Source of the DNA: Castellaniella sp. S9
GTDB taxonomy: Bacteria > Pseudomonadota > Gammaproteobacteria > Burkholderiales > Burkholderiaceae_B
Direction of reading: 5' to 3'
DNA length: 64,000 nt
Assembly (NCBI RefSeq): GCF_027257175.1
Contig: NZ_JAPFGD010000006.1
Span: 124,001 to 188,000 of the forward strand
Made by a program: the position numbers and the translations under genes. The notes under the pieces were generated by a model. That model had not been told where the DNA came from, searched no databases, and worked only from the letters and a program-made list of their open reading frames with translations. Shown here one piece after another: positions 52,446-54,521 of this stretch (within the stretch, counting starts at the first letter, position 1; each line of letters begins with the position of its first letter).

Positions 52446-53194
52446 ACACCGTTCTCAAGACCCACAATCTGGTCAAGCGTTTCGGCGGCTTCGTCGTGAC
52501 CGACGACGTCAGCCTGTCGATCCAGCAGGGCGCGCGCCATGCCCTGATCGGCCCCAACGGGGCCGGCAAGACCACGCTGATCAACCTGCTGACCGGGTTC
52601 CTCGCGCCGACCTCCGGCAGCATCGAGCTCATGGGCGCGGACGTCACCCAGATGTCGCAGCACGAGCGCTGCCGCAAGGGGCTGGTGCGCACGTTCCAGA
52701 TCAATCAGCTGTTCGTCGGCATGACGGTGCTGGAATCGGTCACCATGGCGGTCTGCGAGCGCATGGGCCTTGGCAGCCGCTGGTGGAATCCCGTCGGCTC
52801 GTATGCCGAGGCGGTGGACGAGGCGGCCGAGATCCTGCGCCGACTTAAGCTCATCGACGATGCCTACGAGGTCACGCGCAACCTGGCCTACGGCCGCCAG
52901 CGCCTGATCGAGATCGCCCTGGCCCTCGCGCTGCAACCCAAGGTGCTGCTGCTCGACGAGCCCGCGGCCGGCGTGCCCACCAGCGAAAGCCAGGAACTGT
53001 TCGAAACGATCGCCCAGCTGCCCCGGGACGTGACCATCCTGCTGATCGAGCACGACATGAATCTGGTATTCAAGTTCGCCGAACGCATCTCGGTGCTGGT
53101 CAACGGCGCCCTGCTGGTCGAGGACACCCCCGACGTGATCGCGCATCATCCGCGCGTCAAGGAAGTCTATCTCGGAGAAAACACCCATGGCTGA
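52442..53194 (+). CDS. livG: ABC importer ATP-binding protein LivG-type
   Basis: A 250-residue ATPase that powers the importer with LivF. Walker A GPNGAGKTT lies near residue 38 and Walker B LLLDEPAAG near residue 180. The ABC signature position reads AYGRQRLIE rather than the canonical LSGGQ; LivG proteins often have SYGxQR here, so the departure is moderate. It overlaps livM by 4 bases and the livF fusion by 8. Confidence 0.92.
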   Translation: MNTVLKTHNLVKRFGGFVVTDDVSLSIQQGARHALIGPNGAGKTTLINLLTGFLAPTSGSIELMGADVTQMSQHERCRKGLVRTFQINQLFVGMTVLESVTMAVCERMGLGSRWWNPVGSYAEAVDEAAEILRRLKLIDDAYEVTRNLAYGRQRLIEIALALALQPKVLLLDEPAAGVPTSESQELFETIAQLPRDVTILLIEHDMNLVFKFAERISVLVNGALLVEDTPDVIAHHPRVKEVYLGENTHG

Positions 53195-54521
53195 GCTGCT
53201 GCGCCTGGAGAACGTCTGGGCGGGTTACGGGGACGCCACGATCCTCGAGGACATTTCGCTGTCCCTGAATGCCGGCGAGAGCCTGGCCCTGCTCGGCCGC
53301 AACGGCATGGGCAAGACCACCTTGCTGGCCACCCTCATGGGGGCGACGCGCATGCGCAAGGGGCGCATCGTCTACGAAGGCCGGGACATCGCGCAGGTGC
53401 CCAGCCACAAGCGGGCCCACGCGGGCCTGGGCTGGGTCCCGCAGGAACGCGAGGTCTTCCGCTCCCTCACCGTCGAGGAAAACCTGCAGGTGATCGCGCG
53501 CCCGGGCGACTGGACGCTGGATCGCGTCTACGACATGTTTCCGCGGCTGCGCGAGCGCCGCGCCAACCTCGGCAGCCAGCTCTCGGGCGGCGAGCAGCAG
53601 ATGCTGGCCATGGGCCGCGCGTTGATGCTCAATCCCCGCCTGCTGCTGCTGGACGAACCCCTCGAGGGGCTGGCGCCGCTGATCGCCCAGGAACTGCTGC
53701 ACATCATCGACCGCATGGTCGCCGAGGGCAGCATGGCCGTCATCCTGGTCGAACAGCATGCCCGGCAGATCCTGCCCATCACCCGGCAGGCCCTCATCCT
53801 CGAGCGCGGACGCATCGTCTACCAGGGGGCCAGCGCCGAGCTGCTGGACAATCCCAGGGCGCTGGATCGCTGGCTGGGTGTCGTATCCTCCGACGCGCAG
53901 ACCGCCGAGGCGCCGGAGCCGGATGGCCAGCCCGCCCGCATCCCCGCGATCGAGATGATCCGCGAGGAACACCGCGCCCTGGCCGCCGTGCTGCAATGCC
54001 TGACCCATTTGATCGACGAGATCGAGGCGGGCCGCCTCGAGCCCGACTTCAAGCTGCTGGCGAGCCTGATCGAATACATCTCCGAGATGCCCGACAAGAT
54101 CCACCATCCCAAAGAGGACCAGATCTTTGCGCGCCTGCGCCAGTACACCAGCGAGGTCGACGCACACTTGGATCAGCTCGAGGCCGAGCACGCGGTGGCG
54201 ACCAAGGCCACCGCCAGCATGGACCGCGCACTGGTGCATTATGTGCAGGCGGGCGCCGAGGGATTCGGCGTCTTTCGCGACGCGGTGCGCGCCTACATCG
54301 CCGACGAGTGGGTGCACCTGGGCAAGGAAGAGCGCTACATCCTGCCCGCCGCCCGACGGCTGTTGAGCGCCGAGGACTGGCGGGTGATCAACCAGGATTT
54401 CGCCCGCAATGGCGACCCCTGGAAGGGCGAGCACAACCAGTATGCCGAGCTCTTCAAGCGCATCGCCAACCTGGCGCCCGCGCCCCTCGGCCTGGGCACG
54501 GCACCGGCCGGCGACGCCTGA
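53187..54521 (+). CDS. livF: LivF-type ABC ATPase fused to a hemerythrin (HHE) domain
   Basis: A 444-residue fusion in one uninterrupted frame. Residues 1-232 are a complete LivF ATPase: Walker A GRNGMGKTT (37-45), signature LSGGEQQ (132-138), Walker B LLLLDEP (152-158), switch His191. After a Pro/Ala/Glu linker (about 234-254), residues 255-430 form a four-helix hemerythrin-like domain with candidate iron ligands His262, His306/His307-x2-Glu310, His335 and His377-x3-Glu381. Ordinary LivF proteins end near residue 235. Hemerythrin domains bind a di-iron centre and sense or carry O2, NO or iron, so the fusion may link uptake to oxygen supply. That role is inference; the fusion itself is direct. 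Confidence 0.9.
   Translation: MAELLRLENVWAGYGDATILEDISLSLNAGESLALLGRNGMGKTTLLATLMGATRMRKGRIVYEGRDIAQVPSHKRAHAGLGWVPQEREVFRSLTVEENLQVIARPGDWTLDRVYDMFPRLRERRANLGSQLSGGEQQMLAMGRALMLNPRLLLLDEPLEGLAPLIAQELLHIIDRMVAEGSMAVILVEQHARQILPITRQALILERGRIVYQGASAELLDNPRALDRWLGVVSSDAQTAEAPEPDGQPARIPAIEMIREEHRALAAVLQCLTHLIDEIEAGRLEPDFKLLASLIEYISEMPDKIHHPKEDQIFARLRQYTSEVDAHLDQLEAEHAVATKATASMDRALVHYVQAGAEGFGVFRDAVRAYIADEWVHLGKEERYILPAARRLLSAEDWRVINQDFARNGDPWKGEHNQYAELFKRIANLAPAPLGLGTAPAGDA

Follow-up and report, generated by a model that had tools for sequence, protein, structure and literature searches.

Why would the ATPase of an aromatic-acid importer carry a hemerythrin-like domain? The question arises from a 64,000-nucleotide stretch of the Castellaniella sp. 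S9 genome (contig NZ_JAPFGD010000006.1, positions 124,001 to 188,000 of the forward strand; hereafter the window), in which the ATPase gene of a Liv-type importer runs in one frame into an HHE (hemerythrin-like) domain (53187..54521, + strand). We found that HHE is joined to LivF as a neighbouring gene and as fusions in both orders. The HHE protein very probably partners the transporter. It could well be an accessory subunit, probably with a regulatory task, that recurs among Liv-type (HAAT-family) importers of aromatic acids, a reading that we hold with a little less than even confidence.

The fusion protein and its domains

The fusion gene is a single open reading frame of 444 codons that encodes a complete LivF-type ATPase and a complete HHE domain in one protein, as an earlier reading of the sequence (the original prediction) had claimed. 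Residues 1–233 (53187..53885) form the ATPase domain, residues 234–250 (53886..53936) a flexible linker that varies among orthologues, and residues 251–430 (53937..54476) the helical HHE domain. Both Pfam matches, to ABC_tran (residues 20–159, E 1.8e-32) and Hemerythrin (PF01814; residues 255–389, E 4.1e-12), were above the curated cut-offs, the latter with 47.1 bits against 25.3. The stretches at residues 37, 132, 152 and 191, which we take to be the Walker A, signature, Walker B and H-loop motifs, were all intact. UrtE and LivF were the nearest ATPase models in NCBIfam, and the fusion ATPase scored below the curated cut-off of each (TIGR03410, 224.8 vs 285.8 bits; NF008626, 193.6 vs 441 bits). 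The LivF-type (HAAT importer) assignment follows from intact ATP-binding cassette (ABC) ATPase motifs within an operon of K-H-M-G-F order.

The AlphaFold2 model, built from 105 aligned rows, contained two confident domains, with a mean predicted local distance difference test score (pLDDT) of 89.8 and a predicted template modelling score (pTM) of 0.57. The helices of the HHE domain spanned residues 253–280, 288–320, 325–336, 338–392, 395–407 and 418–429. Residues 233–245 and 439–444 had pLDDT below 50; the linker values, together with the pTM, indicate a flexible tether with no defined domain packing and not a rigid joint. When the complete model was submitted to a fold search and to VIA-align, its ATPase half matched T. 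maritima 1ji0 and LptB, MetNI, MalK and ModBC chains. The 50 matches listed were solely ABC ATPases, so that this comparison concerns the ATPase part.

Neither of two findings that the original prediction had named as fatal, i.e. sequencing errors that join two frames and a fusion in all LivF genes regardless of context, was encountered. Relatives in independent assemblies ruled out a frame error or an assembly join. Among the 151 family genomes searched, full-length fusions with 74–76% identity occurred in five other genomes of the same genus, in one of which (G145) the fusion was truncated by a contig end; in G129, also of this genus, the match was limited to a LivF-like stretch with 44% identity. 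Fusion records in GTDB included Castellaniella defragrans DSM 12141, C. denitrificans, and metagenome-assembled genomes of Comamonas and Oxalobacteraceae. Moreover, HHE accompanied only two of the 30 LivF-like matches (E ≤ 1e-30) in the window's genome, the remainder having been checked with 1.5 kb flanks, which rules out a general LivF feature. Plain LivF homologues (L011–L014) lack the additional HHE domain that this ATPase carries.

The second of these two proteins has the reversed order. It is a 438-residue HHE-LivF (C12:389154) inside another livH-M-G operon, and its model likewise contained two confident domains, separated by a disordered linker (residues 185–200; pTM 0.58). The genome, with four Pfam Hemerythrin matches, thus carries one LivF-HHE and one HHE-LivF.

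Linkage of HHE to livF in other genomes

We collected 162 HHE rows, which gave 156 distinct ones after removal of six duplicates; stretches containing a stop were left out, and genes in the fetched loci were called by a simple custom script. HHE was a separate gene immediately 3′ of livF in 70 of the distinct rows, was fused as LivF-HHE in 13 and as HHE-LivF in 10. The gap between the livF stop and the HHE start had a median of 26 nt and did not exceed 50 nt in 67 of the 70 adjacent rows. The link between HHE and the transporter is far wider than the single fusion from which it was first noticed, and takes three forms. Apparent LivF-HHE fusions in L062, L066, L068 and L112, and an apparent LivM-HHE fusion in L086, were rejected as separate genes once the reading frame was considered. 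In L086 (13327–13884) and L180 (5971–6534), the HHE gene follows LivM rather than LivF and belongs to other HHE branches; Liv operons may have recruited HHE independently in these cases too.

The GTDB set comprised the best 80 of 335 loci, found with one peptide pattern and biased toward the query; HHE was livF-linked in 73 of these 80 (63 as the next gene, 10 as LivF-HHE fusions). In the remainder, the HHE gene of L047 lay 2.1 kb downstream and six had no nearby same-strand Liv gene. Because these 80 had been picked by similarity, an even sample of the order was also taken (399 evenly drawn genomes, HHE matches at E ≤ 1e-25). It contained 74 HHE matches in 57 genomes. Nineteen were livF-linked (three LivF-HHE, 10 HHE-LivF, six adjacent), and five (six by a looser measure) were near another Liv gene. 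A sample of the class (369 genomes) gave 28 matches, of which two were the window genome's own, three were HHE-LivF fusions in genomes beyond the window's order, and 23 had no same-strand Liv gene inside the short flank of ~1.5 kb. A tblastn search of plasmids returned 84 records; the sole one with at least 80% query coverage, from Azospirillum oryzae, had the ABC and hemerythrin parts as separate genes, and no fusion occurred among the 15 matches listed.

Origins of the fusions

Two quick trees were calculated, one of 155 HHE domains (one row shorter than 150 residues was dropped), with long branches, and one of 133 LivF proteins, including 41 that lack HHE, many of which are long-branched; two HHE-bearing loci had been removed from the HHE-less LivF set. 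In the HHE tree, the reversed fusions all clustered together (97*). The main LivF-HHE group, comprising 12 rows and L047, stood beside separate-gene groups within a group of 64 rows (99*), whereas the LivF-HHE protein of L147, on a long branch, stood apart and was counted as one fusion origin. These sequences thus suggest about three fusion origins, in both orders. In the LivF tree, the presence or absence of an HHE partner requires eight changes. Locus L026 presents a partner swap, in which a LivF of the reversed-fusion group is paired, as separate genes, with an HHE of another group.

Stop-codon loss between neighbouring genes could have produced such fusions by chance and without consequence, an easy step, since relatives have the two genes side by side with little DNA between them. 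We regard this explanation as very unlikely, since it would have to account for about three origins in two orders, for ligands kept in 23/23 fused proteins and for fusions kept at 74–76% identity in five other genomes, and since it leaves the adjacency itself unexplained.

In L047 (Castellaniella sp. FW021), a phenol 2-monooxygenase-family gene (5862–7790) lies between livF and HHE. The HHE frame there starts independently and retains every ligand. The domain thus seems useful in trans, and the HHE protein probably functions untethered as well. This locus also has a second LivK downstream of the HHE gene.

The candidate metal site

All ligand residues named in the original prediction are present on the predicted helical bundle, in the pattern H...HxxxE...H...HxxxE, whose His and Glu residues act as metal ligands in HHE domains. 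His262 (53970..53972, + strand) was kept in 93/93 livF-linked HHE rows. The HHPKE stretch (54102..54116, +) supplies His306 and Glu310, each kept in 93/93, and His307, kept in 92/93; His335 (54189..54191, +) was kept in 93/93. In the HxxxE stretch (54315..54329, +), His377 was kept in 92/93 rows and Glu381 in 93/93. The whole set (His262, His306 or His307, Glu310, His335, His377 and Glu381) was retained in 92/93 livF-linked domains, i.e. in 13/13 LivF-HHE, 10/10 HHE-LivF (23/23 fused) and 69/70 adjacent rows. The sole exception, L145, has Leu at position 377, whereas L183 has Arg at 307 with His306 retained.

A profile search of solved structures returned seven distinct sequences, the nearest being NMB1532 (E 4e-5), whereas phmmer with the HHE half returned de novo TIM barrels alone. 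FBXL5, a ubiquitin ligase subunit, and YtfE, an iron–sulfur repair protein, both of the HHE-type fold, matched weakly (both E ~0.004) and may be kin; we know of no link of their HHE domains to transporters. The HHE domain of human FBXL5 is stable solely when loaded with iron. A domain behaving in this way could gate uptake by iron supply or hand iron to oxygenases, and iron dioxygenases do occur in several of the neighbouring pathways (LigB type, gentisate dioxygenase-like, BenA). Nevertheless, FBXL5, although among the seven sequences, is no closer than YtfE and ranks below NMB1532, and the 4-hydroxybenzoate 3-monooxygenase (PobA) and 3-hydroxybenzoate 6-monooxygenase encoded in the loci are flavin enzymes. 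We consider an iron sensor or buffer unlikely.

Aromatic-acid context

Markers of aromatic catabolism were counted within 8 kb of the 93 livF-linked HHE loci. The names fumarylpyruvate hydrolase, DmpF, meta-cleavage hydrolase, LigC-like and LigJ-like were given by eye or by a broad Pfam match. At least one aromatic marker was present in 56/93 loci and an O2-using one in 30/93. The counts were 15 each for 3-hydroxybenzoate 6-monooxygenase, a glutathione S-transferase of the maleylacetoacetate-isomerase type and a fumarylacetoacetate-hydrolase type protein (by eye), 14 for a gentisate 1,2-dioxygenase-like protein, 11 for DmpH, nine for LigB-type dioxygenase, five for PaaY and four for PaaX. Single loci adjoin BenA, 4-oxalomesaconate tautomerase or 4-hydroxybenzoate 3-monooxygenase.

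Among the controls, a marker was found in 1/20 HHE-less LivF loci of the window's own genome (the 20 of 28 with wide flanks), in 1/55 HHE loci without Liv genes (flanks mostly ~6 kb) and in 2/4 loci of the closest HHE-less LivF relatives (73–76% identity). The contrast between 56/93 and 1/20 had a Fisher p of 3e-6, and that with 3/24, after addition of the four closest loci, a p of 2e-5; both are flattered in favour of the linked loci, from which the seeds were mostly drawn. The aromatic-acid context proposed for the fusion is supported.

The catabolic neighbours and the retained ligand set would also suit a di-iron enzyme whose substrate is the acid taken up or the CoA ester of that acid. The pathways involved (gentisate, LigB-type cleavage, meta-cleavage, benzoate and phenylacetate) are, in our view, too diverse to fit one reaction, and we find an enzymatic role highly improbable.

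Some of these loci (L025, 2888–3976; L026, 26–1117; also L121 and L123) encode a protein of ~340–360 residues adjoining a BenC/PaaE-like reductase. It had no Pfam match in either L025 or L026, and the L025 copy had no NCBIfam match and a best PDB match of E 0.02. The L026 copy shows DEMNHE and DEGRH stretches (by eye), and the L025 copy lies near PaaX and a reversed HHE-LivF importer. Judged from sequence, this protein may be an undescribed ferritin-like di-iron oxygenase.

Comparison with known systems

An association of HHE with benzoate degradation is already in print. A 2019 paper (PMC6449761) describes a COG3945 HHE gene in benzoate (box/ben) clusters of the Rhodocyclales studied there and of Rhodoferax ferrireducens. 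In Thauera sp. MZ1T and D. aromatica RCB, this gene shares an operon with a benzoate ABC transporter. The role of this gene is called unclear there, possibly protection or O2 storage, with reference to Gescher 2002. The association of HHE with benzoate clusters and their transporter is the same in our data; here, in contrast, HHE is tied to the transporter, across several pathways, and is fused to it in both orders. The word "fusion" is absent from the main text of PMC6449761, and the fusions in the two orders offer a lead on the role which that paper calls unclear. A literature search, limited mostly to openly readable papers, found no report of LivF-HHE or HHE-LivF proteins.

Extra domains that could gate transport from the ATPase C-terminus are familiar in importers whose chains (MetNI, MalK, ModBC) matched the ATPase part of our model. 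In ABC importers, the ATPases MetN, MalK and ModC carry regulatory domains there. These recognise substrate or a partner protein, and none is a helical bundle that binds metal. Unlike these, HHE occurs in both fusion orders and as a separate gene.

Bacterial hemerythrin domains are described as O2 or redox sensors on other outputs (PMC9388753), in fusions such as chemotaxis receptors, Bhr-DGC and Bhr-HD-GYP (PMC9388753, PMC4919030). In those proteins, as in LivF-HHE, a domain of the hemerythrin fold is joined at a terminus to an output domain. The outputs there are mainly chemotaxis and cyclic di-GMP, and the sensors bind O2, whereas the HHE of the fusion has no HxxxH. The main text of PMC4919030 does not contain "transporter", "ABC" or "ATP-binding", nor does that of PMC9388753 contain "transporter" or "ABC".

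Does the candidate metal site regulate transport?

We propose the following mechanism. HHE would act on the importer in three guises, namely as a separate protein encoded 3′ of livF in many bacteria, as the LivF C-terminus in Castellaniella and its relatives, and as the LivF N-terminus in another lineage. The helical bundle would hold a putative and probably di-iron metal site (H-HHxxE-H-HxxxE). Depending on whether this site is occupied or vacant, reduced, oxidised, or carrying O2 or NO, HHE would touch the ATPase differently, and the rate of uptake would change accordingly. Uptake could so be matched to the cell's capacity, aromatic acids often needing enzymes that use O2 and iron. That the metal site regulates transport seems to us an almost balanced matter, leaning slightly to the negative, and a specific O2 or NO signal is less probable than that. 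We would rank redox/O2 or NO first among the candidate signals and iron second. In the most explicit form of the proposal, a class of aromatic-acid ABC importers, assembled repeatedly during evolution from different Liv lineages, would be controlled by a di-iron HHE subunit that senses O2, NO or iron and slows uptake when the cell has no means of opening the ring; in this form it is tentative and somewhat doubtful. Such a subunit would be, to our knowledge, the first hemerythrin-type switch on a transport ATPase.

A number of observations weigh against this proposal. The ligand set was kept equally well in 54/54 HHE rows without Liv genes, so its conservation points to a working site and not to a role specific to transport. 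The models gave no fixed packing of the two domains (pTM 0.57 and 0.58). Of the livF-linked loci, 37/93 had no counted marker, some of them being truncated by contig ends. O2-carrying hemerythrins have characteristic HxxxH and HxxxxD spacings. In residues 246–444 no HxxxH was found, and the sole HxxxxD starts at residue 306, in the second long helix and not in the last helix of the bundle. On this evidence the site is of the HHE pattern and not of that of O2-carrying hemerythrin, for which PMC9388753 gives a residue set of five His, Glu and Asp.

Further points concern the O2 signal itself. PobA adjoins 2/4 of the closest HHE-less LivF genes; it is an O2-using flavin enzyme, so a pathway can depend on O2 and yet do without an HHE domain. 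Single HHE-Liv operons adjoin indolepyruvate ferredoxin oxidoreductase or benzoate-CoA ligase, neither of which uses O2, and these non-oxygenase neighbours weigh against O2 gating. The original prediction had every ring-attack step of the window's island (PobA, VanAB, LigAB) consuming O2. As a small correction, the island, besides its Rieske-type gene, encodes a LigM-type vanillate/3-O-methylgallate O-demethylase (28726–30138; 822 bits, cut-off 580), which is probably O2-independent, LigM using tetrahydrofolate and not O2. The gating of uptake by oxygen suggested in the original prediction is, in view of these neighbours and of the missing HxxxH and bundle-end HxxxxD, not established, and O2 would be one option among the signals.

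A possible link to denitrifiers was examined through nosZ, whose presence signals life where oxic and anoxic conditions meet. At E ≤ 1e-50 it was found in 6/12 genomes with livF-linked HHE and in 63/387 others (p 0.008). Four of the six positives belong to one genus (g114) and score below the curated cut-off of the family; when matches had to exceed this cut-off, the counts were 2/12 and 37/387, and the window's genome had none. Moreover, nosZ was commoner in HHE genomes generally (17/57 against 52/342 others) and is therefore not transport-specific.

In the sample of the order, 50/74 HHE matches had no Liv gene nearby, so that the HHE family has other jobs, outside transport. Such free-standing domains fit a scavenger or protector, which would bind O2, peroxide or NO, or shield or repair iron enzymes, and which would be tethered to the importer for co-expression and nearness to the membrane without regulating transport. 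The weak profile similarity to YtfE (E 0.004) agrees with such a role, as does the protection or O2 storage and scavenging guessed for the COG3945 gene in PMC6449761. However, co-expression would need neither fusion to the ATPase itself in two orders nor so close a succession of livF and HHE in several lineages of LivF, and we judge a mere protector rather unlikely.

A regulatory HHE subunit is the reading we prefer. That fusions occur in two orders marks out the transporter as the partner of HHE, and it makes the question testable with one protein and one ATPase assay. Gating, if true, would show how some aromatic degraders tie uptake to their respiratory or iron state, with a bearing on bioremediation and lignin use.

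The liv operon and the surrounding island

The fusion gene is the last of a liv operon on the + strand. The LivK-type solute-binding protein (49276..50451), for which relatives stand in like order at other loci, is followed by LivH-type (50524..51378) and LivM-type (51390..52445) permeases, both assigned from their open reading frames and synteny, and by a LivG-type ATPase (52442..53194). The latter was read from its frame, has a 250-residue relative in L031, and overlaps the fusion gene by 8 nt. Upstream, on the same strand, lie a LigB-type extradiol ring-cleavage dioxygenase (47500..48258; Pfam LigB, E 5.5e-72), called LigAB in the original prediction, and a Gfo/Idh-type oxidoreductase (48252..49214; Pfam GFO_IDH_MocA and OxRdtase_C) that by eye is LigC-like. 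A BenE-family benzoate/H+ symporter (54603..55781, − strand; NCBIfam TIGR00843, 426.8 vs 203.4 bits) is convergent with the fusion gene. The Rieske-type gene at 35092–36216 matched another oxygenase model weakly, and its earlier name, VanA, was not confirmed.

The window encodes four LivK-like binding proteins, at 24680–25852, 30107–31423 (by eye), 37291–38460 and 49276–50451, which adjoin PobA, LigM, a Rieske/reductase pair and the liv operon, respectively. Since the window's contig (C30) has a single LivF-like match, several binding proteins may share one pump with an HHE domain.

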